Shown: piece after piece, positions 2,889-25,565 of the stretch
Numbering within the stretch: the stretch's first letter is position 1
How the letters are laid out: every line of letters begins with the position of its first letter
From: Dyadobacter arcticus
Lineage (GTDB): Bacteria > Bacteroidota > Bacteroidia > Cytophagales > Spirosomataceae
Direction: 5' to 3'
Length of the DNA: 64,000 nt
NCBI RefSeq assembly: GCF_011762185.1
Contig: NZ_JAASQJ010000003.1
Span: 62,001-126,000 of the forward strand
Program-made: the position numbers and the translations under genes
Notes under the pieces: generated by a model
Told to the model about the DNA's origin: nothing
What the model saw: only the letters and a program-made list of their open reading frames with translations
The model's database searches: none

Positions 2889-3195
2889 TTTTCCCCCAAA
2901 GTAACAACCAACAATTTGTAGAACTAATTTTAAAAATTTAATGGTTTTAGGTAGCATATTTTTTGTATTATAGTTTCTAGTCCGTAATTTTACTCATTAC
3001 ATACAACTACTCACTTCCACATTCATGCAAATCTCGAGCTCTTTCAATGAGATTTAATGTGCTCACACAATGCGTTAGGCCAGTTTTTGCGTCATTCGAC
3101 CAGTCGTCGATAAATAAATACCGCATATTTCAAGATCAAATTTTGTTATGGCAAGTATTATTACTAATTCTACCAAATAATTGTAATAGAATTAG
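2889..3195. other. Intergenic region, 307 bp, no gene recognised
   Basis: A/T-rich spacer between the anti-sigma-like gene and the response regulator. I found no convincing terminator hairpin, no RNA gene and no full -33/-7 promoter pair. The longest open stretch (3047-3202, 51 codons) overlaps the next gene and has no recognisable features. Confidence 0.6.
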
Positions 3196-3615: not shown

Positions 3616-3626
3616 TCAGTAATACC

Positions 3627-4841
3627 ATGGAATTGACAGTAAACCCTCCAACACCGGTTGTTGAGGTAAAGCCCTACATAGTACAATTCAGGATCATTTA
3701 CCTGAACGCCGACTTCGAACATTACATCAATTTTTCTGAAAAATTTGCCGAATCGCTGCAAGTAGAGTATTTCGGCACCAAAGAGGGTGTTCTCGAAGCG
3801 TTACAGGAGAATTATCCTGCGGATGTGATCGTTGCGCACGCAGGAAGCGGTGGGCTGGAATTGCTGGATATTATCCGCAGCAGCTCAGGATTTGGTAATA
3901 TTCCTTTCGTATTAATGGTCGACCGGCTTAGCCAGGAAGCGATAGACACAGCGCGTGCCAAACATGCTGACGATGTTTTTTCGGTCCGTTTCGATGAGGG
4001 TGACCTTTTAACCAGAATAAAATACTTCAAAAAACGGCAATGGTACGTTGCCAATAAGGCTTCAAAAATTATCGGCTCACAAGGCAACCGCACGCCATTT
4101 TGGAAACGGGCAATTGATGTACTTACCACAGGAACTGCCGTGCTGCTATTGCTTCCGGTATTTCTGCTGATAGCGCTTCTCATCCGCCTCGATTCAAAAG
4201 GCCCTGTCTTTTACCGTTCCAAGCGGGTTGGCAGCGGTTATAAAATTTTTGACTTGTATAAATTTCGCACGATGCGTACGGATGCGGATCAGCTGATCCG
4301 AAAAATGGCTGCGCTGAGCATGTACAACAAGTCGACGGAACCGGTCCAGCAAATTGAGAATAACGGGTTATGCGAGGAATGTCAGGCAGGGGGTAAATGT
4401 AAAAGTCTGCTATTTCACGACGGTAAAGAGATTTGCGAGAAGCTTTATCATTTTCAGAAAGAGCAGAAAGCGGCTTTTATGAAATTTCAGAATGATCCCC
4501 GGATCACTCGTTTTGGCCAGTTTCTGAGAAATTCAAGTCTTGACGAGTTGCCGCAGCTCATTAATATTTTGAAAGGAGATATGTCATTGGTTGGAAACCG
4601 TCCGTTGCCACTTTACGAGGCGGAAAAAATGACTACGGATGATAAAATCTTTCGTTTTGCCGGCCCGGCAGGACTCACAGGTTTGTGGCAGGTTACTAAA
4701 AGAGGGAAAGGGAAAGCGGATATGTCCGAGGAGGAGAGGACCCAGCTTGATATTACTTATGCCAAAGAGTTTTCTTTCAAAATGGATATGCAGATCATAC
4801 TTAAAACATTCCCTGCACTTCTTCAATCAGAAAACGTATAA
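3627..4841 (+). CDS. Initiating sugar transferase with N-terminal pseudo-receiver and Cys cluster
   Basis: 404 residues. Residues 160-400 are a bacterial sugar transferase (phosphoglycosyl transferase of the WcaJ/PglC superfamily): membrane helix at 162-187, then KGPVFYRSKRVG, YKFRTM and the catalytic Asp-Glu pair D305-E306 in SLDELPQ. It should move a sugar phosphate from a nucleotide sugar to undecaprenyl phosphate. Residues 20-135 resemble a receiver domain, but the phosphoacceptor position reads VIVAHAG and the conserved Lys is replaced (SVRFD), so it is probably not phosphorylated. An insert carries C249, C252, C258 and C270, spaced like a zinc or iron-sulfur site. Both additions look regulatory. 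Confidence 0.88.
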   Translation: MELTVNPPTPVVEVKPYIVQFRIIYLNADFEHYINFSEKFAESLQVEYFGTKEGVLEALQENYPADVIVAHAGSGGLELLDIIRSSSGFGNIPFVLMVDRLSQEAIDTARAKHADDVFSVRFDEGDLLTRIKYFKKRQWYVANKASKIIGSQGNRTPFWKRAIDVLTTGTAVLLLLPVFLLIALLIRLDSKGPVFYRSKRVGSGYKIFDLYKFRTMRTDADQLIRKMAALSMYNKSTEPVQQIENNGLCEECQAGGKCKSLLFHDGKEICEKLYHFQKEQKAAFMKFQNDPRITRFGQFLRNSSLDELPQLINILKGDMSLVGNRPLPLYEAEKMTTDDKIFRFAGPAGLTGLWQVTKRGKGKADMSEEERTQLDITYAKEFSFKMDMQIILKTFPALLQSENV

Positions 4842-4890
4842 AAGTAATTTTTCCAGCACTTAATTTTCTTAAACCACACAACCCGTTTAG

Positions 4891-5559
4891 ATGAGATATA
4901 TCTACGCACTGTTTCTCTTCACACTCTCTTTTTCTCCCCTCAAAGCCCAGGACATTCTCGCCCAGGAAATTTCTTACCCTTACCTCGACAAATTAATCGA
5001 GGTTGCTAAGAAGAATTATCCAAGATTGAAATTGTATGAGTCCAGAGTCGAAGCTGGCAGTTATGCAGAGAAAAAAGCAAGGCTTTCCTACTTCGAGATT
5101 TTGTCTTTCTCCTATTTATATAGTCCCGACAGGCTTGCAAGCAGCATTAATCCCAATTTTCTGAACGGATACCAGTTTGGGTTCTTCGTCAACATTGGCT
5201 CTCTCCTTCAAAAACCTTCTCTGATCAAACAGGCTAAAAGCGAACTTAAAGCGCTTGAATATGATCGTGACAGCTATCAGCTATCATTGGAAGCGGATGT
5301 TAAGCGGAGGTATTTTTCCTATGTCCAGTTCAAAATGCTTCTCACTGTAAAGGCAAATGCATTGCAGGATGTGTCCGAAGTGGCCGAAGAGCTGAAAGTA
5401 AAATTTGAGAAAGGTGAAAGTTCTTTTGAAGAATATAGCAGGGCGCAGGTTGTTATTTCCGACAGGTTGCAAAGCAAAATAGCCGCAGAGGCAGATGTGC
5501 TGATTTCGAAAGCCACCTTAGAAGAATTATTAGGCCAAAAACTCGAAGACATCCAATGA
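4891..5559 (+). CDS. Half-length TolC-like outer membrane efflux protein
   Basis: 222 residues with a signal peptide (cleavage probably after SPLKAQ). The remaining sequence resembles one repeat of the TolC/OEP family: helical segments (LIEVAKKNYPRLKLYESRVEAG; later LEALEYDRDSYQLSLEADVKRRY) around a short beta region, ending in SKATLEELLG. Typical TolC proteins have two such repeats and exceed 400 residues, so this is half size. It overlaps the Wzc-like gene by 4 bases (ATGA), so it may be the outer membrane component for polymer export, replacing Wza. That role is inference. Confidence 0.72.
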   Translation: MRYIYALFLFTLSFSPLKAQDILAQEISYPYLDKLIEVAKKNYPRLKLYESRVEAGSYAEKKARLSYFEILSFSYLYSPDRLASSINPNFLNGYQFGFFVNIGSLLQKPSLIKQAKSELKALEYDRDSYQLSLEADVKRRYFSYVQFKMLLTVKANALQDVSEVAEELKVKFEKGESSFEEYSRAQVVISDRLQSKIAAEADVLISKATLEELLGQKLEDIQ

Positions 5560-7742
5560 CAGAACTTTCCCAATTCCTCAGAATATTATACCGAAATAAG
5601 TTCATCCTGATATTTGTGCCCCTCATAACAGTAGTGGCCGCTTATTTTTTGGTTAAAGTGCTTCCTGATCAGTACAAATCACACGGCAGCATTGCCACCG
5701 GGCTGGTGGATAAAACCGAGCAGGGCTTAATGAGCAGCGGTACTGAACAGGATTTCGAAATATCCCGGAAGTTTGACAACATTATTCAAATGATGTCCCT
5801 CAAAAAGGTATTGGATCAGGTTTCCTATCAGCTGCTTCTACACGATTTGAGGGAAACCGAGAAAAATGATTTCGCAAAACCGTCCAAATTATTGGGCGAA
5901 ATGAGCCAGCAGGAGCGCTCTCAGGCGCTTACATTGATCACAAAGAAATACAAAGCCCAGGAAGAATTGCTTCCCGATAAGCCTTTTGAAAAAAAGCTTC
6001 AAAATGTATTGTCTGACATGGAGTTTGATGCCGAAAGCATTCAAAAAAAACTCACTGTTTTTAGAATGGCAAACAGTGATTACGTAAACATTGAATTCGA
6101 GGCCAAGAATCCGATGATGACCGCATTCGTGATCAATACGCTGACCAATGAATTTATTAATATGTATGCAGCACGGCTGGCGACGAACTACAACCGGACC
6201 ATTAATTTTCTGGCAGATTTCCTGGAACAAAAGAAGGTAGCATTGCGCGTGCAGATGAATGGCTTGCGAGATTTTAAAATCCGTAATCGCGTACTTAACC
6301 TCGACGAACAGGCGAAAAGTCTTTACGGGCAAATGGCTGAATTCGAGTTGAGGCGGGAAGTCGCTAAAAAGGATGTTATCGCATATGGCGTTGCCATAAA
6401 AAACATCGATAACAGGTTTAGTAGCAATGATCGTAAGTATTTTGAAAGTGCCGTATCTACCATCAATCAGAACATTGTAGCTACGAAAACAATCCTGCGG
6501 TCGGCGAATGAAGCTTATGTGAAAAGCAATTTCGACCCAAAATATAAGACAACGCTCGACTCTGCCCAGGCAAAACTTTCGGCCCAGATCAACGAATCGA
6601 CTGACCGCTATCTGTACAGCCCATTGACCCTTAAACAAAACCTGGTCACCGAAAAGCTGACAATGGAAGTCGCAAGAGATCTAGCAGAGAACAGTTTGTC
6701 CACCATCGAAACGGAATTGGGACGGTTAAATGTAAAATTTGACGGACTCGTGCCCAATGAGGCTAAAGTGCAGGAATTTGAAACGGCGATTGACATTGCG
6801 GGGAGAGAATATATGGAGGCCTTGCAAAAATATAATGATGCGAGATTGCTTTCCAGTTTTCCCGCTAAACTTAAAGTTGCAGAAAAGGCATTGCCTGGAA
6901 CGATACAGCCTTCCAAAAAGATTGTTCTAATTATACTCTCAGGGATTATCAGCCTTGCATTCTGCCTGTTCGTACTATTTATCTTGTACTTTTTCGACAA
7001 TTCCATCCGGTATCCGCAGCAGCTCGCCAATGCCACGGACCGTCCAGTACTTGGCTTTGTTAATCAGGTCAGCGGTGGTTTCAACCTCAGCCAGTTACAA
7101 AACGAAAGCTCGCAGGAACGGAAAGTGGAGCTTTTCAGAAACCTGATCCGATCAATACGGTTTGAGCTGGACAACGAGTATCCCGATCCCAAAATCATTT
7201 CGGTTACCAGTCTGGCCGAAGGAAACGGGAAAACGCTGCTGACAATCAGTCTTGCGTGGGCTTACTCAAAAATCAACAAACGCGTCCTGATTATTGACGG
7301 GAATTTCAGCGATTCCGACATTACCAAACTCAACACCGGGGCGAAGTATGTGGAAGATTATTTCGAAAATGGCTCTACCGTTCCGTTGGAAAATCAAAGA
7401 GGTTCAATCTGCCTGCTGGGCAATAAGGGTGGCGACGTTTCCCTGTACGAACTGACAGGCGAAACCCAGATTCGGGAAGCATTTAATTCATTGAAAACCA
7501 AATTTGATGTAATCCTGATCGAGGCTGATTCGCTGGTATCTATGAATAAAGCAAAGGAATGGATCACATTCTCTGATACCGTCGTCTCTGTTTTTGAAAG
7601 CGGCAGGACCATTTCTTACGCTGACAGGTCAAAAATAGAATATCTGAAAAACCTCAATGGGAAAATGGCTGGATGGGTACTTACCGGCGCACAGGATGTT
7701 TTGAATCAGACAGGCAAAGTTTCTAAACATGTAACTGAATGA
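5556..7742 (+). CDS. Wzc-like chain-length/export protein with atypical ATPase domain
   Basis: 728 residues. An N-terminal membrane helix (about 13-35), a long Wzz-type periplasmic region with coiled coils (to about 445), a second membrane helix (456-480), and a C-terminal BY-kinase-like P-loop domain. Walker A is AEGNGKT near 554-560, the A' motif VLIIDGNF near 577-584, and the Walker B region VILIEADS near 652-659. The usual DAD/DTPP forms are changed and there is no C-terminal tyrosine cluster, so autokinase activity is doubtful. The expected role is control of EPS length and export. Overlaps by 4 bases on both sides make it part of a tight operon. Confidence 0.85.
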   Translation: MTELSQFLRILYRNKFILIFVPLITVVAAYFLVKVLPDQYKSHGSIATGLVDKTEQGLMSSGTEQDFEISRKFDNIIQMMSLKKVLDQVSYQLLLHDLRETEKNDFAKPSKLLGEMSQQERSQALTLITKKYKAQEELLPDKPFEKKLQNVLSDMEFDAESIQKKLTVFRMANSDYVNIEFEAKNPMMTAFVINTLTNEFINMYAARLATNYNRTINFLADFLEQKKVALRVQMNGLRDFKIRNRVLNLDEQAKSLYGQMAEFELRREVAKKDVIAYGVAIKNIDNRFSSNDRKYFESAVSTINQNIVATKTILRSANEAYVKSNFDPKYKTTLDSAQAKLSAQINESTDRYLYSPLTLKQNLVTEKLTMEVARDLAENSLSTIETELGRLNVKFDGLVPNEAKVQEFETAIDIAGREYMEALQKYNDARLLSSFPAKLKVAEKALPGTIQPSKKIVLIILSGIISLAFCLFVLFILYFFDNSIRYPQQLANATDRPVLGFVNQVSGGFNLSQLQNESSQERKVELFRNLIRSIRFELDNEYPDPKIISVTSLAEGNGKTLLTISLAWAYSKINKRVLIIDGNFSDSDITKLNTGAKYVEDYFENGSTVPLENQRGSICLLGNKGGDVSLYELTGETQIREAFNSLKTKFDVILIEADSLVSMNKAKEWITFSDTVVSVFESGRTISYADRSKIEYLKNLNGKMAGWVLTGAQDVLNQTGKVSKHVTE

Positions 7743-8914
7743 AAATCATTTGGTTTTTATGGTGGCTGGTCCAATGGGCAATCGGATTTTATCTGATTTT
7801 CCCCATCCTGCTTTTGTTGATCAACCTATTTGTGCCTAAAAAAGGCAAGCGGATCGTTTTGCCTGGAAAGTCGCCTGAGGCCGATTATGCGCTGATCGTA
7901 GCTACTTATGAGCAGGTGCAACAGCTCCCGGATGTGATTGCGTCTATTTTGAAACTTGATTATTCTAATTATCTCATCTACATCGTTGCTGATAACTGCG
8001 ACACGTCTGGCCTTCATTTTTCCGACGAGCGGGTCATTCTCTTAAAGCCGGAGAAGATCCTTGCCAGCAATACCCGGTCGCATTTTTTTGCCATCAAAAA
8101 TTTTAAAAGACAACACGAGCGACTGGCGATTATTGATAGTGACAATCTGGTAGATAGCAGGTTCCTGAATGAGCTGAATGTACTTTTCGATCAAGGATAT
8201 GAGGCGGTTCAGGGTGTTAGAAAAGCAAAAAACCTGGATTCTGTTTATGCGTGTCTGGATGCCGCGAGGGACATTTACTATCATTATTACGATGGTCATA
8301 TGTTGTTTGAAGCCGGGTCGTCCGCCACATTATCCGGTTCGGGGATGGCTTTTACCGTTTCGCTTTACAATGAGGCATTGGGTGGTTCGGATATCACAGG
8401 AGCAGGATTTGACAAAATTCTGCAAAATGCTATAGTGAGCAGGAAAAAACGAATAGCATTTACCGGGCACGCAGTTGTTTATGACGAGAAAACCTCTGAA
8501 TCTGAGCAGCTTGTAAAACAACGTTCGCGATGGATCAATACCTGGTTTAAATACTTCAAATTCGGGTTTTCACTGATTTTTAATGGCGTGCGGAATTTAA
8601 ACTGGAACCAGTTTTTGTTTGGATTTGTGCTATTGAGGCCGCCACTTTTTATTTTTCTGATCGTCTCTGTTTTATTGATGGTTTTAAATCTTTGGATTGC
8701 GCCAATAGTGAGTTTGTTTTGGCTGATAGGGCTCAGCCTTTTTGTAGCCGGATTTATAATTCCGCTTTTCAATGCTTCTACCGACCGCCGGATCATCAAT
8801 TCGCTAACTTCGATACCTGTATTCATGTATTACCAGGTAATTTCTTTGCTTAAAGCGAAAAAGGCGAACAAAATATCAGTCGCGACCAAACACAATTACC
8901 GAAAGGCCCCATAA
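7739..8914 (+). CDS. Processive-type family 2 glycosyltransferase, membrane protein
   Basis: 391 residues: an N-terminal membrane helix, a GT-A fold (ALIVATYEQ, then the metal-binding IIDSDN), and QRSRW fitting the QxxRW signature of processive GT2 enzymes, followed by two to three C-terminal membrane helices. It should extend or synthesise a polysaccharide at the inner membrane. Its start overlaps the Wzc-like gene by 4 bases. Confidence 0.87.
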   Translation: MKIIWFLWWLVQWAIGFYLIFPILLLLINLFVPKKGKRIVLPGKSPEADYALIVATYEQVQQLPDVIASILKLDYSNYLIYIVADNCDTSGLHFSDERVILLKPEKILASNTRSHFFAIKNFKRQHERLAIIDSDNLVDSRFLNELNVLFDQGYEAVQGVRKAKNLDSVYACLDAARDIYYHYYDGHMLFEAGSSATLSGSGMAFTVSLYNEALGGSDITGAGFDKILQNAIVSRKKRIAFTGHAVVYDEKTSESEQLVKQRSRWINTWFKYFKFGFSLIFNGVRNLNWNQFLFGFVLLRPPLFIFLIVSVLLMVLNLWIAPIVSLFWLIGLSLFVAGFIIPLFNASTDRRIINSLTSIPVFMYYQVISLLKAKKANKISVATKHNYRKAP

Positions 8915-15136: not shown

Positions 15137-15988
15137 CTACAATTTTTCAATCTCTTTTGGCGCTTTGGAATGCAGGTTGAACAGTAAGCCTTTGAATTCC
15201 TTTACAACCCGTTTCGTGAAAAGGCTGACAAAACTTCCGTCCCTTTTCAAAGTTCTTGCGCCAGTCCAGGCGCGGGCTTTGTTATTTTTAACTTGTTTTA
15301 TTTTACCATAACTCATTAAAGCATAAGCCATTCGCCCGTCCTCACCTCGGACATTCTTCATCACAAAGCCTATTTTCAGACTCAAATCTTTTAAAAATCC
15401 CATACTGATCCCATACGTATTGAGATAGGGGCGGTTCAGGTGGCGGTATTCAGCGACAATATCTTTGGCTTTTTCCAAAAGCGCGAGCTGCCAGCGTGAA
15501 TATCCTTCCTCGCTGATGAACGAATATCTGCCATAAACGCAAACGACCTCGGGTTGCGTGAGCACCTTCATCATTTCTTCCAGCCAGCAATTGGGATAAA
15601 AGCAATCGGCATCGGCCAGCAAAATGTATTTTCCCCTTGCATTTTCCAAACCAAGCTGACGCGCAGGCCCCGGTCCCTGAATGGACTGAAAAACCGTCCT
15701 CACATGCAATGCGTCAATGGTTTGCTGGGTTTTGTCAGTGGAATTATTGTTGACAACCAAGATTTCAAAAGGCCTTGAAGTGGCCATATCCGACAAAGTG
15801 GCCACGCATCGCAGCAGATTCACTTCTTCATTCCAAGCCGCAATCATAATGGTAACCAGCGGATCGGACGTTTTTTTTGCGTCCAGCCTTGCATTAATTT
15901 CACTAAAAACACGCTCCGGAACTTGATCAAAGGAGTTAAAAGGGTAATTGTATTGACCTAGCCAGTCCGGGTTTTGAAAGAATGACAT
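15137..15988 (-). CDS. Family 2 glycosyltransferase
   Basis: 283 residues, GT-A fold: VTIMIAAWNEE at the donor-binding strand, VVNNNSTDKTQ, and the metal-binding LLADADCF. No membrane helix apart from a weak C-terminal segment. It is the last gene of the long minus-strand run that begins at 22880, 40 bases after the flippase, and converges on the GT4-like gene with a 14-base gap. Confidence 0.87.
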   Translation of the reverse strand: MSFFQNPDWLGQYNYPFNSFDQVPERVFSEINARLDAKKTSDPLVTIMIAAWNEEVNLLRCVATLSDMATSRPFEILVVNNNSTDKTQQTIDALHVRTVFQSIQGPGPARQLGLENARGKYILLADADCFYPNCWLEEMMKVLTQPEVVCVYGRYSFISEEGYSRWQLALLEKAKDIVAEYRHLNRPYLNTYGISMGFLKDLSLKIGFVMKNVRGEDGRMAYALMSYGKIKQVKNNKARAWTGARTLKRDGSFVSLFTKRVVKEFKGLLFNLHSKAPKEIEKL

Positions 15989-16028
15989 TGGAAATTTGTC
16001 TTAAACAGTGAGCAATTGAGGTAAACGT

Positions 16029-17372
16029 CTAGGTAAGACGCGGTTTGATATACTTCATAAAGAATTCGGGATAGAACCGATAGGCATAGATAAAGGTGTT
16101 GAGTGTGTTGACTTTCAGGATGCGGTTCAAAATTGTTTGGGCAATGGTAAAGCTGACAATGTTGGAAATCAATGTTGCATAAGCGGCGCCCATGACGCCA
16201 ATCCTGCTGATTAGTATGTAGTTAAGACCAAGGTTAATTACGGCATTGAGCATAACCAGCATGAAATTGATCTTTGGCCTGCCAATGGAATCCAGAATGG
16301 TACCGCATTGCCTGCCAAATGGAATCAACAGGCAGTATAACACGGTGACTTTCAGGATCGGAACGGTTTCTTCGTATTTATCCCCAGCTATAAAACTGAC
16401 CACAAAATCGGGAAACAGGAAGAGGAAAAGCAATGCGGGTATCAGGACGGCGAGGATGGTACCGACCGATTTTTCATAAAGATACTTAATGGCTGCCTCC
16501 CCATCCGTGGCGAGCCTTCTGGCGCTTTGAGGAAAAACGATCACCGCAATGGCATTGGTCGGGATGTCAACCAGGTTCATAATTCTGACAGCAATGTTGA
16601 ATGCGCCGGAAGCGGCCGGGGAAAGCAGCGAACCCAGCATCATCTGATCAATGGTACTGGAAAGGATGGATCCGATGGATGTTCCAAATGCATACTTACC
16701 ATAGTTCAAAAGCTTTTTGACCCATTCTGTGGTGACTTGAAATGCAAAGTTGAGCAGGTCTTTTACAAAAAAGTATTCAACCATTATGCTTAATAATAAG
16801 GCAAGGGCTTGAATATAAACCAGTTCAATCAAATTGATTTTTATCTTGAAAAAGAAACAAATCACCAGGTAAATGAAGAATACACCCTGCTTGACAAAGT
16901 TCGTAACGAAGATTCCATTAAATCGGAAATTAGCCTGCTCCATCCAATGAAATTGGGAAAGAATGCCCGAAAACAGGTAAACGACGCTGTACAGCATGAA
17001 CAATGGCACAATTTCCTCGGACTTCCAGATCTGTCCCAGATAATGGGCAATCACAAGGTTAATCAGAATACATAATAAGGTGAGGCCGCCGCACAGCGCG
17101 AAAGAGGCAGACAGGATTTTGTTATGTTCGCTTGATTCTGAGAATGATAGATATTTGATCAATGCGTTCTGTATCAGGCCGCTACGTACCATTTCGAAAA
17201 TGGTGGTGGTGGCTACGAAAAGCGTCCACACACCAAATGAATGTTTATCCAGCATGCGGACCATCAGGTAAAACCCACCAAAGCCGAATAGGACGCTGGT
17301 GAAATTTTGCATTACATTGATAATCCCTGATTTCAACCAATACTGATCATTACTTGATTTTTCACTTGCCAT
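16029..17372 (-). CDS. Polysaccharide flippase, Wzx/MATE-like
   Basis: 447 residues with about 12-14 membrane helices arranged as in the polysaccharide transport (PST) family of the MOP superfamily; the loop NIAVRIMNLVDIPTNAIAV is typical. It should flip the undecaprenyl-linked repeat unit to the periplasm, which together with the Wzy-like polymerase and Wzc-like protein points to a Wzx/Wzy-type pathway. Confidence 0.86.
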   Translation of the reverse strand: MASEKSSNDQYWLKSGIINVMQNFTSVLFGFGGFYLMVRMLDKHSFGVWTLFVATTTIFEMVRSGLIQNALIKYLSFSESSEHNKILSASFALCGGLTLLCILINLVIAHYLGQIWKSEEIVPLFMLYSVVYLFSGILSQFHWMEQANFRFNGIFVTNFVKQGVFFIYLVICFFFKIKINLIELVYIQALALLLSIMVEYFFVKDLLNFAFQVTTEWVKKLLNYGKYAFGTSIGSILSSTIDQMMLGSLLSPAASGAFNIAVRIMNLVDIPTNAIAVIVFPQSARRLATDGEAAIKYLYEKSVGTILAVLIPALLFLFLFPDFVVSFIAGDKYEETVPILKVTVLYCLLIPFGRQCGTILDSIGRPKINFMLVMLNAVINLGLNYILISRIGVMGAAYATLISNIVSFTIAQTILNRILKVNTLNTFIYAYRFYPEFFMKYIKPRLT

Positions 17373-17426
17373 AGAGCAGGGCCTGGAATTGAATGCGAAC
17401 TTGATAGGTCATAGAAACGGGTCAGA

Positions 17427-18191
17427 TCATTTACCCTTCAGAAAATCGTAATTGAATTTCAAATGGCGATATAAGTGCCTGGATAAAGAAACAAGTGGAT
17501 TTTCTGTTTCCCTCCAGAAGTTTCTGCGTACCGTGCTAGGCTCTAACGAGGAGTTGATCTGATCGAACAATGTAGTATACGCTTCGAAAAACAATCCTTT
17601 TCCTTTGTTTTTGAGCACCGACATCATCATTTGATATTCAGTAACTTCCACTTTCAGGCCTTCAGGATATCGTCCGAAACGCTCAAAAAAGGTACTCCGC
17701 CTCAAATGGGGATGATCGCTATAATAATAGAACTTCTTATATCCCGGATTAAGCAATTTGAATTCCATATCCGAAAATCCGCGTTTGTAGGGTTTCAAAT
17801 ACGGATATTTGAAGTACGCGTAAAAACGGACAAAATCCAGCTCTTTTCTGTCCTTCATGAAGCCGAGGGCATGGACCAGGTTTTGCGGAAAAATGAGCTG
17901 CGGCACAAAATCTTCCTGAACATATAATGTGTAAGGGGTTTTTACCGCGTCCTGGCCCTTATTAATGTTATTACCCAATCCTTTATTTTTAGGAGTGGTA
18001 ACCAGATTAAATTTATAGGTGCCTTTCAGCCCATTGATGTAGTCAACGTGCTCTTGCTTACTTCCATCATCGGACACCACAATGTCGCCGAAACTACATC
18101 CGAGATCGCTAAAATTTTTCAGCAATCTCTCCAGTGAAGTACTTCTGTTATAATGGGTTACGAGTAATGTTATCTCATCAAAACTGTGCAT
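17427..18191 (-). CDS. Family 2 glycosyltransferase
   Basis: 254 residues with a GT-A N-terminus (ITLLVTHYNRSTSLERLL, then IVVSDDGSKQEH) and the acidic YVQEDFVP at the metal site. It is soluble and slightly short for the family. Part of the minus-strand EPS operon, 12 bases behind the GT8-like gene. Confidence 0.83.
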   Translation of the reverse strand: MHSFDEITLLVTHYNRSTSLERLLKNFSDLGCSFGDIVVSDDGSKQEHVDYINGLKGTYKFNLVTTPKNKGLGNNINKGQDAVKTPYTLYVQEDFVPQLIFPQNLVHALGFMKDRKELDFVRFYAYFKYPYLKPYKRGFSDMEFKLLNPGYKKFYYYSDHPHLRRSTFFERFGRYPEGLKVEVTEYQMMMSVLKNKGKGLFFEAYTTLFDQINSSLEPSTVRRNFWRETENPLVSLSRHLYRHLKFNYDFLKGK

Positions 18192-18203
18192 ATCCGCGAG
18201 GAT

Positions 18204-19094
18204 CTATTTAAGGTATCCTGAAACAATTTTTCTCAATTTGTTGTAAGCTTTCCGGCTCAGCCTAACCCAGTCTGGAACAGGTTGGTGGTCTTTCCAAGGC
18301 GTCATCCGCAGGTATTTGTAAAATTCTTCCTTATATGCGAGGTTGCAGTTGTAGGATTTGAAAATGGGCTTAATGTCCAGATAGTGAATGATATATGGAT
18401 CCTTGACGTCCAGAATGGCATAGCTGTTCCAGCGCTCGTCTAAAATCACCCATTGGTTTACCAGTACCACGTTTAGTCCGTATTGATCCGGGAAGCTTGC
18501 CCAGGAGAGATTGTCGAAAATGCATTTAAGTATCTTGGTGGAAAAGTCACCCTCTCTCCATTTAATGGGATCAACCAGGAGCAAGCCTGCATTAAAGTAT
18601 GGAGTTTGCGGGTCAAAGCCCAGTTCCTTATAGTTGGGGACGCCTCCCCATTCGCTGCTGACAACTTTTGCGAGATCGGCAACTGCCCCAAAAAGCTTAT
18701 CTTCAAGGTCAGTATGCCATAATTTTGAAATCTCTTCCACTACGATCATATCCACGTCCAGGTATAAAAATCTTTCAGTGTCCTGTGGAATGATATATGG
18801 ACCAAACAAGCGGAGATAGCTGGTGATCGGGAATGCAGATTTGTCGACTGGTATTTTGACATTCGGAGGGATAACTTCCTGGGATTTGCACCAGTACATG
18901 GTCGTCATTTCCGGATTGCTTGAAGCCTGTACCTTTTTCTTGTTTGACTCTGAAACCCCGTCGTCGATGATATAGAGGTCAATTTTTTCAGGGGTTTTGT
19001 GATTAACCTCGATGGATTTGATTAATGCCCCCAGCAAAATCACATAGTGATTGTCAGTGGCAACAATAATGGTAATTTTGTCTTTAATGCTCAT
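18204..19094 (-). CDS. Family 8 glycosyltransferase
   Basis: 296 residues. Clear GT8 features: IIVATDNHYVI at the start, the DxD metal site in FLYLDVDMIV, FNAGLLLVDPIKWR, and DQYGLNVVL, then a basic C-terminus. These retaining enzymes move glucose or galactose from UDP donors, as in LPS core synthesis. It follows the acyltransferase in the minus-strand operon. Confidence 0.9.
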   Translation of the reverse strand: MSIKDKITIIVATDNHYVILLGALIKSIEVNHKTPEKIDLYIIDDGVSESNKKKVQASSNPEMTTMYWCKSQEVIPPNVKIPVDKSAFPITSYLRLFGPYIIPQDTERFLYLDVDMIVVEEISKLWHTDLEDKLFGAVADLAKVVSSEWGGVPNYKELGFDPQTPYFNAGLLLVDPIKWREGDFSTKILKCIFDNLSWASFPDQYGLNVVLVNQWVILDERWNSYAILDVKDPYIIHYLDIKPIFKSYNCNLAYKEEFYKYLRMTPWKDHQPVPDWVRLSRKAYNKLRKIVSGYLK

Positions 19095-19123
19095 ATAAAG
19101 GTAGTTATGACTTATTTTGACTG

Positions 19124-20257
19124 TTACGGAGTTTTTAATTCAGGTTTTTGGTCGATTACTTCGACACGTGTTCTGGGTTTCGATTTGTATGCAAATCGCA
19201 TTTCAATGTATTTGTAAGTCCCTGCCGAGAAAATATAGATGATTAAAAAGTTGACTATAAAAAGATAGGAATAGGCCGTCTCAGGAAATTTCAATATCCG
19301 GATGAAAACCACATTGAAAATGCTGATCATCAGCGCGTGACTCATGTAAATGGAATAGGAGTACTTACCAAGGTTTTGCAGCAATTTGATATTCTTGATG
19401 GAACGGGATATAATTCCCCTTTCGAAGGCAAAAATATAGATACTGGCAAAAAATAAGGCTTCATATACAAACCCGATATCTTTCAAGCTTTGCCCATTGC
19501 AGATCAGGACAATGATCGCTATCACGGCGAGAATTTCAGCAGCGGTGAACCAGGACGAATGGGTTAATGAAAATGTGCTGTAACTCAGCCTGAAAATATT
19601 GACGCAGATTGCACCCAGAAAAAAACCGACGATCCCTCTGAGGAAACCGTAATCGAATGTGAAATCGATCTTGAAACCATTTTGAATGGATATTAATGCT
19701 CCCGCAGCAACCAGTACCATTAGGAAGTAAATCCAGTTTTTCGCCCTATCCGCTCGCAGTACGAAAATGGTAAGGGTAAGTGCGGCGAAAATAATGTAAG
19801 CAATCATTTCTGCACTGATAGACCAGCTTGGAATATTCCAGCTTACATCTTTAGGATCAAATATGGGTGTGGAGTTGAGTAAGAAAAGGGATGTAATGAA
19901 GGTGAAGATATTATTATCCGGATCATTTGGGTTGTTGACTTTTACAAAGGTTGTCAACATGTTTTTGGCAAACTCTACCGCAACGAACAGGATCAGCATG
20001 AATAAATGCAATGGATAGATCCTGAGAAACCGTTTTTTAAGAAACAACTTTACCTCGTCGATCGTCGAGATCGCCTGGTAACTGTATGCGATGACAAAAC
20101 CGCTGAGCACGAAGAAAAAGTCGACGAACATATCCGCATTGGCGACAAAGCTGTTGTTGATGACAGGCGTTTTTGCAAAAGGGCTCAGGTGATACAAGAA
20201 TACAAGCGATGCAAACAGTCCCCGAAAAATATCCAGTACTTCAAACCGATGTTTCAT
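19124..20257 (-). CDS. Acyltransferase family 3 membrane protein
   Basis: 377 residues with about 10 membrane helices. The N-terminal signature of this family is present (FEVLDIFRGLFASLVFLYHL, with the conserved Arg and His, then DFFFVLSGFVI). It likely O-acetylates or otherwise acylates the sugar polymer across the inner membrane. The start is one base from the stop of the HATPase gene, which joins the signalling module to the biosynthetic genes in one transcript. Confidence 0.9.
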   Translation of the reverse strand: MKHRFEVLDIFRGLFASLVFLYHLSPFAKTPVINNSFVANADMFVDFFFVLSGFVIAYSYQAISTIDEVKLFLKKRFLRIYPLHLFMLILFVAVEFAKNMLTTFVKVNNPNDPDNNIFTFITSLFLLNSTPIFDPKDVSWNIPSWSISAEMIAYIIFAALTLTIFVLRADRAKNWIYFLMVLVAAGALISIQNGFKIDFTFDYGFLRGIVGFFLGAICVNIFRLSYSTFSLTHSSWFTAAEILAVIAIIVLICNGQSLKDIGFVYEALFFASIYIFAFERGIISRSIKNIKLLQNLGKYSYSIYMSHALMISIFNVVFIRILKFPETAYSYLFIVNFLIIYIFSAGTYKYIEMRFAYKSKPRTRVEVIDQKPELKTP

Positions 20258-20258
20258 A

Positions 20259-20831
20259 TCAGATTGCTTGCAGGTTAAACGTACTCAAAAACCGGTTTGT
20301 AGCAGATTCAGGCTCATAATGATATTCGAATGTGTCCGATGCTTTCGTCAAAATCAATAACCCAAAATGTTCGTTGGTATCCTTCAATAGTGCTGGCATT
20401 GCCGGATCGCCAATTTCCTGAATATAAAAAATAACGTGGTTGGCATCATCTGCCACCGCCCAAAGAGATTCGCTTCCGTTATGCGATACCTGAATTTTTT
20501 TTGGAAAAGATGCACTTTCAAGCGGCCAGACAATTTTTTTATCCTCATCACACCTATGGAGTGATAGCGGATTGCCGTTGTCTTTTTTCTCAAAAAGCAG
20601 TTGCGTTGCATTCATTCTGATCGTCAATAGACACTCTTCCACATCCGAATGTTTTATGGCATTGGTAAGCATTTCCGTAATCACCCATTTGGTGCGAGTG
20701 ATGACGCCTAATCCAATGTTATTGCCTGCCGCACTTTGCTCGATATGGGCAATGCAAAGATTGACTTTATCTGAAACTGCTTCCAGGTCGCATTTAAAAA
20801 TCGTTTCAAATCTATCGCTGTACCCGTTCAT
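20259..20831 (-). CDS. HATPase domain protein, RsbW/SpoIIAB-like anti-sigma kinase candidate
   Basis: 190 residues with a GHKL ATP-binding fold: N box TEMLTNAIKHS with E53 and N57, G1 box KDNG with D84. There is no membrane helix and no dimerisation/His domain, as in serine kinases of partner-switching systems. The last third diverges from RsbW. Start overlaps the STAS gene by 4 bases. It probably phosphorylates the adjacent STAS protein, whose free form would then hold or release a target. No sigma factor lies in the operon, so the target is unknown. Confidence 0.8.
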   Translation of the reverse strand: MNGYSDRFETIFKCDLEAVSDKVNLCIAHIEQSAAGNNIGLGVITRTKWVITEMLTNAIKHSDVEECLLTIRMNATQLLFEKKDNGNPLSLHRCDEDKKIVWPLESASFPKKIQVSHNGSESLWAVADDANHVIFYIQEIGDPAMPALLKDTNEHFGLLILTKASDTFEYHYEPESATNRFLSTFNLQAI

Positions 20832-21172
20832 GCGTTGTTTAATGTTGCTGTCGCCTCGTCATAGTCTTTAAAAATTTTAAAGACCTTGTCCATTCTGATC
20901 AGTGTCAGAAGGTTATGCACATCAGGTTTTAGAGAAACAAGATAGATATCGATATTCCTGGGCAGCGCATATTTGAGTGCCACCACCAAGCTTCCCAGGA
21001 AAGAGCTGTCGATGTAATTTACGTTTTCAAAGCTCACGATAATGAGCCTCGCACCCTGTACCATCAGGCTGATCATTTCCTCTTTAAATGGGTCTGAATT
21101 GGCTAGGCTGGCCTCAACGGGTAAGATGGTTGCCATTACAACCCGGTTTGTTTCGCGCGTTTTTAAGATCAT
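20828..21172 (-). CDS. STAS domain protein, RsbV/SpoIIAA-like antagonist
   Basis: 114 residues forming one STAS domain. The phosphorylation motif is VNYIDSSFLG, with S56 directly after D55 as in RsbV-like proteins. The Gly that usually follows the Ser pair is replaced by Phe. It lies between the PP2C gene (5 bases upstream) and the HATPase gene (4-base overlap), giving the standard phosphatase-antagonist-kinase order. Confidence 0.87.
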   Translation of the reverse strand: MILKTRETNRVVMATILPVEASLANSDPFKEEMISLMVQGARLIIVSFENVNYIDSSFLGSLVVALKYALPRNIDIYLVSLKPDVHNLLTLIRMDKVFKIFKDYDEATATLNNA

Positions 21173-21177
21173 GAGGG

Positions 21178-22335
21178 TTAAATTTTTTCAATAAATATGA
21201 TACTTGCATCGTCCATTTGATTGCTATCATCAATGCGGTCCAACACTTGTGTTTGAATCAGGTCAAAGCTTTCAGGTTGACTTAAATACGGACTGATTTT
21301 CTCAACAAAAAATGGATAATCACTCTTTTTGGACCCATTGGAAGGAATGTCGATCATTCCATCTGTAAAAATGACGAGACTATCGCCTGTTAGCATTTGA
21401 ATGGTCTGTTTATCATAAAAACCATCTTCCAGCAATCCGAGCAGCAAGCCCGAAGATTGGACTGTTGTAATTCTCTTATCGCTGAACCTGAAATTGATCA
21501 GCGGTAAATCGCCTGCACCGGTATAATGTACAGCGCCGGTCTGGCTGTCGAGCAGGAGAAGTGAAAGACTTGAAAGGATATTTTGAAGACTTTCATCGAG
21601 ACAAATCAGTTTATTGATCTTTTGGGTAATGGTATCAAGACCAAAATCATTATCAAGGACGCAAAACCGGATCGCCGCGCGGATGTAGCTTAGAAAACCA
21701 AACGTAAAAAACCAGGCTTTCCACTTCTTTCCCATGATATCGCCCAGGAATGCAAAACAAAACCGGCCGTCGACCTGAACAAAATCCAGAAAATCGCCCC
21801 CAGGATATCCCCGGTAACCTTTATGCCAGAAATGGATCCGAAAGCCGGGCACTTCGGGAGCTTTGACGGGAATGGACTTTACATTCAATGTATCCGCCGC
21901 AATTTTCAGCTCCCGGACGGATCTTGTATGCTCATTTTGTAAGGATCTGATAATGTTATTTAGCTTGGAAATGATAACAGGAATAGGTGTTTCCTTATTT
22001 ATAAAATCCAGCGCGGACATGCTTAAACCTTCCAGTACCAGGGAATTATCTGTAAAAGATGTTAGGAAAACAAAGGGAATGTCACTGATAATTGGGTTCA
22101 TTAAAACGGCCTGCCGAAAATCAAAACCGTTCATTTCAGGCATATCGTAATCGGAGAGGATCAAGTCGGGTGTTTCAGTGACTAACATTTCCAATGCATC
22201 CGACGCAGATTCGCAAAGAACGCACTGGTAGCCCGCCCGGATCAGGGCAGCTTCCACAACTTTGCTGAATAACCGGCTGTCTTCAACCAAAAGTATTTTT
22301 TTGACAGCCGCAGGGGCTTCGGAAAATGCGATCAT
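21178..22335 (-). CDS. Receiver-PP2C (SpoIIE/RsbU-type) phosphatase
   Basis: 385 residues. N-terminal receiver (residues 11-130) with acidic VEDS, phosphoacceptor D62 in SDYDMPEMNG and a Lys in FINKETP. A short linker leads to a SpoIIE-type Ser/Thr phosphatase domain (about 175-385) with the metal-binding motifs GGDFLDF, LGDIMG, FTDGMID and DDAS. The loop that usually reads GHG is GKKWKAW. It should dephosphorylate the STAS partner when the receiver is phosphorylated. Overlaps the upstream membrane gene by 4 bases. Confidence 0.9.
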   Translation of the reverse strand: MIAFSEAPAAVKKILLVEDSRLFSKVVEAALIRAGYQCVLCESASDALEMLVTETPDLILSDYDMPEMNGFDFRQAVLMNPIISDIPFVFLTSFTDNSLVLEGLSMSALDFINKETPIPVIISKLNNIIRSLQNEHTRSVRELKIAADTLNVKSIPVKAPEVPGFRIHFWHKGYRGYPGGDFLDFVQVDGRFCFAFLGDIMGKKWKAWFFTFGFLSYIRAAIRFCVLDNDFGLDTITQKINKLICLDESLQNILSSLSLLLLDSQTGAVHYTGAGDLPLINFRFSDKRITTVQSSGLLLGLLEDGFYDKQTIQMLTGDSLVIFTDGMIDIPSNGSKKSDYPFFVEKISPYLSQPESFDLIQTQVLDRIDDSNQMDDASIIFIEKI

Positions 22336-22880
22336 TTCTTTTTGAAGTTTAGCACAAGCAAAAGCACACCGCCAAAAATGATCATCAATGAAAAAAGGTC
22401 CATAACCGTGACGCCGTCGTTGCTATTGAAATAATAAACTGTGAAAATTTCAAAGCTAGGTGGAGCAGGCATGATGATCATGGCCAGTCCTGCGACGACC
22501 AGCAACACGGCCAGGATAAGCATAATGCCTTTCTGTAAAGCACCGGTTTTGGCTTGTTCATTTCCTATATTGCTATCAATCCGGTTTTCAGCGAGCAGCT
22601 TTTCAAGGCCTTCCAGCAATTCTTCCCTGGATAGATTGTTATCCCCATCCAGCATTTGAAAGGGTGCTATTTTTTTCTGGGTTAAGGCAGACTTACGGAA
22701 AGCTTCCGCGATTTGCTGTTGGTAAAGACGGGATGAATTGCTATCCACCACCGAGATACTGATGAGCTCAATCAATTCCCGTACTTTGTCGGATAGTATG
22801 TTTTTTTCAGGGCTGTTTTTTGAAAATTGACTGACTCGATTGTCCAAAACCTTATTAATGTTCAGAGATGATATTTTCAC
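22332..22880 (-). CDS. Small membrane protein heading the partner-switch/EPS operon
   Basis: 182 residues, no recognised family. The first 110 are soluble and helical with an acidic patch (DGDNNLSREELLEGLEKLL); two membrane helices follow at about 112-134 and 150-178. It overlaps the receiver-phosphatase by 4 bases and is first in the operon, so it may anchor or modulate the phosphatase at the membrane. This role is inferred only from position and topology. Confidence 0.75.
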   Translation of the reverse strand: MKISSLNINKVLDNRVSQFSKNSPEKNILSDKVRELIELISISVVDSNSSRLYQQQIAEAFRKSALTQKKIAPFQMLDGDNNLSREELLEGLEKLLAENRIDSNIGNEQAKTGALQKGIMLILAVLLVVAGLAMIIMPAPPSFEIFTVYYFNSNDGVTVMDLFSLMIIFGGVLLLVLNFKKK

Positions 22881-23065
22881 TTTGCCAACATTTAATTAGA
22901 TTTTAACGGACTGTTGAGGCAATTTTTGGATACTACGGACAAAATCGGGTGCTTAAACCTACATTTTTCTTAAAGCTATATTTTTATTCTTATTTTTGAA
23001 ATAGTTCTACAATTCTACTATAATATTCCTTCATTCAGACCGTTTCCAGAAGTCATTTTTCCAGA

Positions 23066-23983
23066 ATGAAAAAAGTTTCCATTGTGACGGTCAATTTCAA
23101 TCAACCCCAGGTTACAGAGGACTTGTTAAGGTCGCTACAAGAGGTCAATAACTACCCTAATGTCGAAATAATCGTCGTGGACAATGGTAGTACGGTCAAC
23201 CATGTACGAGATTGGCAAAGGAAATATCCAGAAATTATTTTTGTTAGGTCGGAAAAAAATACTGGTTTTGCAGGGGGGAATAATATTGGGATCGGTTATG
23301 CAACCGGTGAATATTTATTTCTGATCAATAACGACACCGAGGTTACAGCCGAACTAGTTGGAAGGCTGGTTTTAGACATGGAAAGTAATTGTAAGATCGG
23401 AATAATATCTCCTAAAATCCATTATTTCGATCATCCAGGTATGCTGCAATACACTGGCTACACACCTATGAATTATTACACGGCTCGAAATGCGTCTATC
23501 GGACAGTTTGAGCAGGACAAAGGACAATACGATTCATTGAGTGGAGTAACCGGCTATGCGCATGGGGCAGCGATGATGATCCGGCGGGAAGCGCTGGAAA
23601 AAGCCGGCATGATGTCGGAAAACTATTTTCTGTATTACGAAGAGCTGGACTGGTGTGAACGGATCAGAAAAGCGGGCTACGAAATCCATGTAGACCTAAA
23701 TGCATTGATTTATCATAAAGAATCTGTGTCAGTGGGCAAAAGGTCCGCATTAAAGGAATATTTTATGAACCGCAACCGGATCCTTTTTATCCGGAAAAAT
23801 GCGCCCGGCTTCACTTTTTTTATTTTCTGCTGCTATTTTTTTGCGACGGTGGTCCCGAGAAATCTATTACAATACATGAAGAATAGGGAGTTTAGCTTCA
23901 TTCCCGTTTTTCTCAAATCAATCTCCTGGCATTTTACCAATAAACCGGATAGCGACAACCTGGGCTACCGGATGACCCGTTAA
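23066..23983 (+). CDS. Family 2 glycosyltransferase, rhamnosyltransferase-like
   Basis: 305 residues, GT-A fold with IVTVNFNQPQVTEDLL, VVDNGST, NTGFAGGNNIGI and the metal site INNDTEV, the pattern of WbbL/rhamnosyl transferases. A hydrophobic stretch (FTFFIFCCYFFATVVP) near residue 250 may associate with the membrane. The upstream region contains TATTTTTG at 22991-22998, matching the -7 element, without a clear -33. Confidence 0.88.
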   Translation: MKKVSIVTVNFNQPQVTEDLLRSLQEVNNYPNVEIIVVDNGSTVNHVRDWQRKYPEIIFVRSEKNTGFAGGNNIGIGYATGEYLFLINNDTEVTAELVGRLVLDMESNCKIGIISPKIHYFDHPGMLQYTGYTPMNYYTARNASIGQFEQDKGQYDSLSGVTGYAHGAAMMIRREALEKAGMMSENYFLYYEELDWCERIRKAGYEIHVDLNALIYHKESVSVGKRSALKEYFMNRNRILFIRKNAPGFTFFIFCCYFFATVVPRNLLQYMKNREFSFIPVFLKSISWHFTNKPDSDNLGYRMTR

Positions 23984-23985
23984 TC

Positions 23986-25158
23986 ATGGAAATACTCTTC
24001 TGGCTCAGTTTGTTTGTCGTATTTTATACATTCCTTGGATATGGGATCGTACTCTATGTGCTGGTGCGAATAAGGCGAGCTCTAAAAGGCAGGAGATTGG
24101 CCCCAGGTGTGGATCAGGAATTTCCAACATTGACGCTAATCATTGCTGCGTATAATGAGGAAGGTATCATTGAAGAGAAGATTAAAAACACATTGGAATT
24201 ATCTTATCCTGCTGGAAAACTGAAACTTATCTTTATTACCGACGGCTCATCAGACCGTACACCGCAGATTGTAAGTGCCTACAAGCAGATCAAACTCATG
24301 CATACGCCTGCTCGCAGCGGAAAAATTCTTGCGGTGCATCGGGCCATGCACGAGGTGGACAGTGAGGTGGTGGTTTACACCGACGCAAACACATTTTTGA
24401 ACCGGGAAGCGTTATTGCTCATTGCACGACATTACGCGGATCCAACGGTAGGGGCGGTTTCGGGAGAAAAAAGGGTAATGCAGGATGTTGTTTCCGATGC
24501 GACTGCGGGTGAGGGTTTCTACTGGAAATATGAGTCCACACTAAAAAAGTGGGATTCTGAGCTCTATTCGGTGGTTGGGGCTGCGGGAGAGTTGTTCAGC
24601 GTACGTCGTTCGTTATATAAAGAAGTGGAACCTGACACAATCCTTGACGATTTTATGATCTCCATGCGTATTGCTCAGCAGGGTTACCGCATTATCTATG
24701 AGCCTGATGCCTACGCGTCGGAGTTATCTTCTGAAAACATTCAGGAAGAATTGAAACGAAAAGTCAGGATTGCGGCAGGAGGGATCCAATCCATTTTGCG
24801 TCTTCCAGCATTACTGAACCCGTTTAATCATCCAATGCTTTCATTCCAATACATCAGTCATAGGGTGTTGCGCTGGACTATTACCCCCTTTTTGATGATT
24901 CTCGCACTGATTCTGAACATTTTGATTGTTGCGAGGGGAGGAGGGTGGTTCTATGGACTCATATTGGCTGCTCAGTTTTCTTTTTATACCCTGGCATTGG
25001 CTGGCTGGATTCTGGAAACGCGGAAAATAAAAGTGAAAGCACTATTTGTCCCTTATTATTTCTGCGTCATGAATTATGCTGTAATCGCGGGGATCCGCAG
25101 ATATATCAAAGGATCGCAAAGTGCAGCCTGGGATAAGGCAAAAAGAAAAAGCGCATAG
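23986..25158 (+). CDS. Family 2 glycosyltransferase, membrane-anchored
   Basis: 390 residues: N-terminal membrane helix, GT-A domain (LTLIIAAYNEE, ITDGSSD, YTDANTF, ILDDF), a KRKVRIAAGG segment at the position of QxxRW, and about three C-terminal membrane helices. Two bases separate it from the preceding glycosyltransferase, so the pair forms an operon. Confidence 0.88.
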   Translation: MEILFWLSLFVVFYTFLGYGIVLYVLVRIRRALKGRRLAPGVDQEFPTLTLIIAAYNEEGIIEEKIKNTLELSYPAGKLKLIFITDGSSDRTPQIVSAYKQIKLMHTPARSGKILAVHRAMHEVDSEVVVYTDANTFLNREALLLIARHYADPTVGAVSGEKRVMQDVVSDATAGEGFYWKYESTLKKWDSELYSVVGAAGELFSVRRSLYKEVEPDTILDDFMISMRIAQQGYRIIYEPDAYASELSSENIQEELKRKVRIAAGGIQSILRLPALLNPFNHPMLSFQYISHRVLRWTITPFLMILALILNILIVARGGGWFYGLILAAQFSFYTLALAGWILETRKIKVKALFVPYYFCVMNYAVIAGIRRYIKGSQSAAWDKAKRKSA

Positions 25159-25196: not shown

Positions 25197-25565
25197 TCAG
25201 ATCAATTTCAACCTTTCGGACTCTGTTTCGAGAATCGGGGTCATTGTATTCAGCTCATTTGAGATTTCCAGGTACATTTCCATTAAATCCTCAGCACTTG
25301 CATCATTCTTAATCGCCCGCTCCAGTGCATCCACCTTTGGACGGATTTTTGTGAGCCCGGTCATTGTAAAGGAAGGTTTCATGCCATGGACAATACTAGC
25401 TGCTTCTTTTTTGTTGTTCGCCAGCAGCGCATTGTGCAATAAAGTCCAACGGGGAAGAGAGTCGCTTAAAAAGGCATCAAAAATCATGTACAGGATTACC
25501 GGATCTTCGCCATAAGCCTGATCGATATATTCGGCATCCAGGGCAGGATTGAGTTCTAAAGCCAT
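25197..25565 (-). CDS. Stand-alone Hpt protein (canonical)
   Basis: 122 residues, helical. H60 and K63 in SIVHGMKPSFTMTG match the Hpt core exactly, with G70. Like the Hpt protein at 10568, it lies tail to tail with the end of a plus-strand glycosyltransferase run. It may pass phosphate to the receiver-PP2C protein or the receiver-only regulator. The complement of 25657-25664 reads TAGTTTTG, a possible -7 element, but no -33 is visible. Confidence 0.87.
   Translation of the reverse strand: MALELNPALDAEYIDQAYGEDPVILYMIFDAFLSDSLPRWTLLHNALLANNKKEAASIVHGMKPSFTMTGLTKIRPKVDALERAIKNDASAEDLMEMYLEISNELNTMTPILETESERLKLI

Follow-up and report, generated by a model that had tools for sequence, protein, structure and literature searches.

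A partner-switching module beside a conserved glycosyltransferase pair in Dyadobacter, with a membrane protein as its possible adaptor

Introduction

What does a bacterial partner switch control when it lies in an exopolysaccharide (EPS) locus, in an operon with no sigma factor gene? The question is raised by a 64,000-nucleotide stretch of DNA from Dyadobacter arcticus (contig NZ_JAASQJ010000003.1, positions 62,001 to 126,000; hereafter the window), part of a genome of 6.04 Mb. Here, successive minus-strand genes encode a two-helix membrane protein (TMP), a phosphatase with a receiver and a PP2C domain (hereafter PP2C), a STAS protein and a GHKL serine kinase. An initial annotation, made from the sequence alone, described these four genes as the head of a nine-gene EPS operon, proposed that the STAS protein acts directly on an EPS enzyme and regarded TMP as a possible new input module.

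The explanation favored here, to which we give slightly better than an even chance, is that the switch is wired via TMP to a pair of divergently transcribed glycosyltransferases, gGT2 (23066-23983, plus strand) and hGT2 (23986-25158, plus strand), and that a sigma factor is not its output. An adaptor role for TMP itself is given about an even chance, or a little better.

The Steady Partner of the Switch

TMP was found in 44 of 48 genomes of the genus, the window's own included, and in 0 of 174 other genomes of the family when a single sequence was used as the query. Comparison of the 20-kb regions of all 43 Dyadobacter relatives with a TMP match showed the order Hpt-hGT2-gGT2-TMP-PP2C-STAS-kinase to be preserved in every one, with minor irregularities: the hGT2 open reading frame (ORF) is short in L067, and one ORF separates gGT2 from TMP in L075. 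The genes downstream of the kinase are far less constant. The acyltransferase gene directly follows the kinase gene in 32 of the 43 relatives, and in nine of the other 11 its place is taken by an oppositely oriented, convergent glycosyltransferase gene, so the four genes form a separate unit. All five tail genes, acyltransferase, GT8, GT2, flippase and GT2, are present in only five relatives (L033, L062, L065, L068 and L071), with L061 as a sixth candidate in which an opposite-strand ORF was called where one of the genes is expected. The nine-gene operon was therefore rejected as a functional unit, and the idea that the module heads an EPS operon did not survive, as the tail is replaced or absent in most relatives and the steady partner lies upstream. 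The related expectation that the four genes would be conserved next to wzx and glycosyltransferase genes holds for the four genes themselves, but not for the full tail.

The same arrangement extends well beyond the genus. Profile searches of 395 class-sampled genomes detected the kinase along with TMP in two genomes of Mucilaginibacter, a genus of a different order. When named genomes were scanned with the PP2C profile, 134 relatives were found, from which 80 loci were kept: 32 from Dyadobacter and 48 from others, including Mucilaginibacter, Pedobacter, Desertivirga, Paradesertivirga, Arcticibacter, Filimonas and metagenome-assembled genomes labelled Taibaiella and Parafilimonas. STAS adjoins PP2C in all 80 loci; a kinase was called in 79 and TMP is present in 76. 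The gGT2-hGT2 pair directly adjoins TMP in 70 of them, with a single intervening ORF in L108. Of the non-Dyadobacter loci with the pair, 16 of 38 hold at most one other window-like EPS gene within about 10 kb (L136, on a short contig, was left out, and the span is below 10 kb on cut contigs), a count that detects only genes resembling the EPS genes of this window and misses unlike ones. The steady partner of the switch is thus the divergent gGT2-hGT2 pair, not the EPS tail.

The nearest NCBIfam model to hGT2, a membrane GT2 protein, is PgaC/IcaA, at 107 bits, below the cut-off of 422 of that model. At least 97% of 100 rows keep D133, D221-D222 and an RVLRW stretch, the last of which resembles the (Q/R)xxRW motif of processive enzymes.

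The Membrane Protein TMP

TMP (22332-22880, minus strand) is a protein of 182 residues with a GTG start. In the predicted layout, whose helices come from a low-confidence model, a cytoplasmic N-terminal part carrying the LSREELLEGLEKLL motif, with Arg85, is followed by a first transmembrane helix (approximately residues 118-137), the loop PAPPSFEIFTVYYFNSNDGVTVMD and a second helix (approximately residues 159-178). Pfam offered two identities, Pox_I5 (26.9 bits against a cut-off of 25, 5e-6, spanning the two helices) and PGPGW (E 0.28), and both were set aside as likely chance helix matches.

The loop and the cytoplasmic motif keep different company. The loop was followed in a survey of 149 genomes of the genus Mucilaginibacter, in which the switch was scored as a PP2C-profile match of E <= 1e-20 and hGT2 as a match of E <= 1e-120. 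A loop-bearing TMP was present in 68 genomes, 67 of which have hGT2 and 65 the switch; in the sole genome without an hGT2 match, G726, TMP lies at a contig end. A loop-less TMP occurred in eight genomes, seven of them with the switch and one with hGT2, there on another contig. The remaining 73 genomes lack TMP; hGT2 is found in 50 of these and the switch in four. TMP and PP2C thus occur together in 72 genomes and either one alone in four each. Fisher tests gave p = 3e-32 for TMP with the switch and p = 3e-8 for the loop with hGT2 among TMP genomes, values that are overstated since the genomes are related.

Arg85, which lies in the cytoplasmic SREELL motif, follows the switch. It is kept in 104 of 107 rows of a TMP alignment that includes four duplicate pairs and one re-fetched genome; five TMPs outside these rows likewise have arginine at this position. 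It is missing only in L078, L159 and L160. These full-length TMPs come from genomes without a PP2C match and retain the loop, the helices and the adjoining gGT2-hGT2 pair. In the hGT2 tree, L159 groups with L156 and L173, and L078 and L160 group with L138, L139, L141, L144 and L145. All of these neighbors keep the switch, so that at least two losses of the switch are independent. Another locus, L162, has the order gGT2-hGT2-(hexapeptide protein)-TMP-STAS-acyltransferase in one direction. Here, PP2C and the kinase have been lost at the locus, and both Ser56 of the STAS protein (IDSSF) and Arg85 are intact.

Together, the way in which the loop accompanies hGT2, the way in which Arg85 accompanies the switch and the composition of L162 indicate that the cytoplasmic part of TMP works with the switch, most likely with the STAS protein, and that the loop works with the glycosyltransferases. 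These patterns speak against TMP as a new input module, since it persists beside gGT2/hGT2 without a switch, its loop tracks hGT2 and its Arg85 tracks the switch.

The proposed pathway would run as follows. Together with the kinase, the phosphatase, whose activity probably depends on the phosphorylation state of its receiver domain, would determine whether Ser56 of the STAS protein is phosphorylated. Unphosphorylated STAS would dock on the cytoplasmic helical motif of TMP, in the region of Arg85, and TMP would, through its membrane hairpin and periplasmic loop, switch the gGT2/hGT2 pair on or off. We infer that the STAS protein rather than the kinase is the binding partner of TMP; the presumed contact between TMP and gGT2/hGT2 and the sign of the control are of the same kind. 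In its full form, the proposal makes TMP the link by which an RsbV/RsbW-type switch would control a PgaC/IcaA-like pair post-translationally, with STAS acting on the Arg motif and the loop on polymer synthesis; in this form it is tentative and falls somewhat short of an even chance.

Several observations weigh against this picture. The TMP model has a pLDDT of only 62. All eight loop-less TMPs were read and are mutually alike, probably representing one lineage, so the association of the loop with hGT2 may go back to roughly a single change of context. The loop-less TMP remains with the switch, which means that some of the tie between TMP and the switch is independent of the glycosyltransferases. 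In turn, hGT2 occurs without TMP in 50 Mucilaginibacter genomes and in all four TMP-less Dyadobacter genomes; control by TMP is therefore optional. Only about two independent switch losses underlie the Arg85 result, and a fourth switchless TMP, the short L161, whose genome is 71% complete, has kept Arg85. Finally, L162 stands alone, and its genome contains a further PP2C-STAS-kinase set (L163), which could act in trans.

The module with a loop-less TMP and no adjoining gGT2/hGT2 was seen at L125, L134, L135, L142, L153, L166-L168 and L195-L197. L134 and L153 have a receiver-domain protein and a DUF4412-like protein nearby, and the loop-less loci possibly serve another output of the switch. A weak match to the TMP profile was also seen in a further genus (G602, E 2.6e-5), with two internal stops. 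In G014 (L034/L005), a TAG stop falls within the aligned TMP stretch near the start, and a later start gives an uninterrupted ORF of 167 residues.

The Switch Proteins

The three enzyme classes of a partner switch are all present. The receiver-PP2C protein (21178-22335, minus strand, 385 residues) matches Response_reg (1e-18) and SpoIIE (7e-20) in Pfam and is a SpoIIE-type PP2C with the catalytic Asp residues. The STAS protein (20828-21172, minus strand, 114 residues; PF01740, 1.2e-12) is an antagonist with a conserved putative phosphoacceptor, Ser56 in YIDSSFLG, which presumably corresponds to Ser58 of SpoIIAA; its profile also matches the putative anti-sigma antagonists TM1442 and TM1081. 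The kinase (20259-20831, minus strand, 190 residues) has only a weak Pfam match, to HATPase_c_2 (8.6e-4), under the curated cut-off. Its AlphaFold2 model (pLDDT 88) has the SpoIIAB/RsbW fold: the top structural match is SpoIIAB (Z 15.0), followed by RsbW (14.4), LvrC of Leptospira (13.5), Rv1364c (13.4) and SiaB (11.4), with histidine kinases scoring Z 9.3 and down. In this model, an additional β insertion separates the G1 box from the G2 box. The domains had been named correctly in the initial annotation, the kinase being confirmed mainly through this predicted fold.

Residue conservation was assessed in 108-109 rows per protein, representing 102-103 distinct sequences. Receiver residues D19, D62 and K114 and PP2C residues D181, D184, D199, D325, D375 and D376 are kept in 107-108 of 108 rows; receiver Thr92 is replaced by Ser in nine rows. 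The PP2C protein also has an M-G-K-K/R-W..W signature in 108 of 108 rows, which departs from what we take to be the usual GDVxGHG. Y53, D55, S56, F58 and G60 of the STAS protein are kept in 109 of 109 rows. In the kinase, which has recognizable N, G1 and G2 boxes, E53, N57, K60, H61, H155 and G157 are kept in 108 of 108 rows and D84 and G86 in 104. Compared to the window proteins, the kinase is the fastest-evolving of the three (31-62% identity, against 70-85% for PP2C and 69-84% for STAS). Judged by these residues, the module is preserved as a functional switch with a working receiver, in line with the earlier description of a complete module with an intact phospho-Ser motif, and the predicted switch biochemistry very likely operates.

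The Hpt gene adjoining hGT2 (25197-25565, minus strand) was considered for the role of a phosphodonor dedicated to the PP2C receiver, and at least 97% of 44 Hpt rows keep its putative phospho-His, H60. The candidate was rejected because Hpt is still found beside hGT2 in all four TMP-less Dyadobacter genomes and is thus not tied to the switch.

A PP2C-STAS-kinase set without TMP is found at L149, L157, L158, L163, L164 and L165, and constitutes a second home of the same switch. At L149, Pfam assignments identify the genes ahead of it as methylmalonyl-CoA mutase and dnaA and the one that it faces as an aminotransferase gene, and the other five loci have ORFs of the same lengths around the set. 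STAS residues L62 and L66 differ in these TMP-less paralogues, a difference that was left unused as there are only four distinct sequences.

The Nine-Gene Run

All nine ORFs described earlier were recovered on the minus strand from 22880 to 15137, with overlaps or short gaps. TMP and PP2C overlap by 4 bp, as they do in 42 of the 43 relatives, a gap of 5 bp separates PP2C from STAS, and STAS overlaps the kinase gene by 4 bp. The first TMP start codon that follows the stop is GTG in 37 of the 43 relatives, TTG in four and ATG in two. The genes are real, as their reading frames are preserved across the 43 relatives. Identity ranges from 31 to 88% and is lowest for the kinase; in one exception, L073, PP2C and STAS are each broken into two pieces.

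The kinase gene is followed after 1 bp by a gene for an acyltransferase 3 family membrane protein (19124-20257; Acyl_transf_3), and then, after gaps of 29, 12, 54 and 40 bp, by the genes of the variable tail: a GT8 glycosyltransferase (18204-19094; Glyco_transf_8), a GT2 glycosyltransferase (17427-18191; Glycos_transf_2), a Wzx-type flippase (16029-17372; Polysacc_synt_3) and a second GT2 glycosyltransferase (15137-15988; Glycos_transf_2), all on the minus strand and assigned by Pfam.

Sigma Factors and the Divergent Promoter Region

No cognate sigma factor of the SigB/F/G type was found. None of the 12 matches to TIGR02980 in the genome is over the cut-off, which one of 14 control genomes does pass. 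The best match reaches 110.9 bits against a cut-off of 234 and is probably RpoD. A distant sigma factor as sole partner, a possibility raised at the outset, was thus looked for without a SigB/F/G-type candidate over the cut-off in the genome. The accompanying remark that a sigma factor gene is lacking holds for the nine-gene operon, but the window does have an ECF-type (extracytoplasmic function) sigma gene at 1253-1849 (Sigma70_r2, 3.7e-9), at the far end of the EPS locus. This gene is followed by one for a TonB C-terminal-domain protein, the two spanning 1253-2888 on the plus strand directly before the EPS locus.

Between the divergent genes is a promoter-like block facing gGT2 (22966-23010, plus strand), consisting of TTTC/TTTG ... 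TAnnTTTG followed by GAAATAGTTCTAC. A 13-mer, GTAGAANTATTTC, is exact in this intergenic region in 42 of the 43 relatives, and the TTTG-TAnnTTTG pattern faces gGT2 in 36, the window having an altered form. Among the TMP-less Dyadobacter loci, the 13-mer is exact in L181 and has one mismatch in L179; it was not seen in L182, nor in L180, which ends inside gGT2. Because it persists there, the block is apparently an element of gGT2 rather than of the switch. The 13-mer was also tried as a handle on a regulon and none was supported: the whole genome has two sites, compared to one for the reversed control, and the other site (L192) has no convincing gene start.

No full match to the Bacteroidota-type promoter, which we take to be TTTG-N17-23-TAnnTTTG, was found on the minus strand between 15000 and 23100, where -7-like matches number five, against 3.7 in base shuffles. 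The pattern also misses the upstream region of the switch itself, so a single operon transcript is not shown.

The genome encodes one other SpoIIE phosphatase, with a receiver-like N-terminal region (7177-8358 of L191, which is C3:404001-422000 of the genome). It lies behind two histidine kinases (2535-8358), with no STAS- or RsbW-like neighbor among the ORFs listed, and looks like a different system.

Alternative Explanations

TMP could instead be a membrane input that senses an envelope signal and passes it to PP2C, with the output elsewhere. The overlap of the TMP and PP2C genes fits such a role, as does their co-occurrence in Mucilaginibacter, and the loop-less TMPs do stay with the switch in the absence of gGT2/hGT2. 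However, PP2C already has an intact receiver, which is more plausibly the input of the switch. An input protein would also not be expected to behave as TMP does at L078, L159 and L160, where it outlasts the switch, with its loop intact, beside gGT2/hGT2, or at L162, where TMP and STAS are retained though the PP2C gene is lost; nor does it account for the way in which the presence of the loop tracks hGT2. We consider an input role unlikely. A variant with TMP or the glycosyltransferases as the target makes the kinase the effector and STAS its antagonist. This is the canonical direction in RsbV/RsbW, and the rapid evolution of the kinase and its β insertion could be read in its favor, but STAS is the more conserved of the two and it is STAS, not the kinase, that remains at L162. 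This arrangement appears very doubtful.

The switch might also act on transcription, with the kinase or STAS controlling an ECF sigma factor, RpoD or some other regulator of EPS promoters, so that the linkage reflects co-regulation. The top matches to the kinase fold are anti-sigma complexes, an ECF sigma gene is present in the window, the divergent promoter block is strongly conserved and the switchless short-TMP locus L161 has a weakly ECF-like ORF (20% identity). Against this stand the lack of any SigB/F/G-type match over the cut-off in the genome, the absence of an ORF labelled as window-ECF-like in the 48 non-Dyadobacter loci mapped (by BLAST best hit only) and the persistence of the promoter block at gGT2 in TMP-less Dyadobacter. 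Transcriptional output is thus rather improbable. With a residue-complete switch, linkage to EPS genes across genera and no SigB/F/G-type factor over the cut-off, the module is better read as acting on something that is not a sigma factor. To this extent, the initial annotation was right about the STAS protein, but the route proposed here passes through TMP rather than directly to an EPS enzyme. That the switch is a passenger in an EPS island, with a regulatory target that has nothing to do with EPS, has only a slim chance: the PP2C-STAS-kinase set does occur elsewhere without TMP (e.g., L149, L157 and L158), but its pairing with gGT2-hGT2 recurs across families and orders, and at 16 of 38 loci further window-like EPS genes are scarce or absent nearby.

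Relation to Known Systems

The classic partner switches, RsbU/RsbV/RsbW and SpoIIE/SpoIIAA/SpoIIAB of Bacillus, consist of the same three enzyme classes as the switch described here. Unlike these, the module has no SigB/F/G gene over the cut-off; in its place are an extra membrane protein and glycosyltransferases. SypA and SiaC already provide examples of STAS proteins whose output is not a sigma factor, and it is the combination of a membrane adaptor with a glycosyltransferase pair as output that appears to be new. No prior report of the module in Dyadobacter or Mucilaginibacter, or of such a polysaccharide switch in Bacteroidota, was found among the titles and abstract openings searched, a search that mostly left out the subscription literature. 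If the favored explanation is true, the module would add a new class to the known outputs of partner switches and would give slime-forming Bacteroidota a cellular means of controlling EPS. Comparative genomics names a partner (TMP), a residue (Arg85) and an enzyme pair (gGT2/hGT2), which makes the question testable in harmless soil bacteria.

The comparisons that follow draw on selected passages of the cited papers. In the SiaABCD system, unphosphorylated SiaC binds helical motifs in the stalk of SiaD and activates the enzyme, and phosphorylation blocks this (PMC8457831; PMC7647112), a precedent for a STAS protein acting on a helical motif in TMP. SiaB of Pseudomonas aeruginosa is structurally similar to the window kinase (6kko_B, Z 11.4, root-mean-square deviation 3.5 over 135 residues). 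The output of SiaABCD is a diguanylate cyclase and the acceptor in SiaC is Thr68, whereas the window has a Pfam STAS protein with Ser56 and glycosyltransferases, and no GGDEF match was found among the nine operon genes or gGT2/hGT2. HsbA/HsbD and BgrV/BgrR are also cited in PMC8457831. The cyanobacterial HmpU/V/W system of Nostoc punctiforme is, like the module, a partner switch of a polysaccharide locus, in this case also a motility locus, and HmpV was suggested to act on an unknown target (PMC8256260, PMC10120452).

A further parallel is SypE/SypA. SypA of Vibrio fischeri is a STAS protein of the syp polysaccharide locus that is phosphorylated on Ser56 and active when unphosphorylated, and its target is unknown (PMC8256260, PMC4517449, PMC10120452); its action has been placed below transcription (PMC10120452) or at the start of transcription (PMC8256260). 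The window STAS protein likewise has Ser56 and lies inside a polysaccharide locus. SypE, a response regulator, combines kinase and phosphatase activity in one protein; the module described here has two genes for these in the window, in the 43 relatives and in the named loci with both calls. The passages covered mention no TMP-like protein for SypE/SypA. Unlike for SypA, the fixed glycosyltransferase pair and the conserved membrane protein of the window module indicate an output, and, if the favored explanation is true, they would offer, by analogy, a candidate answer to what the STAS proteins of polysaccharide loci, such as SypA and HmpV, act upon.

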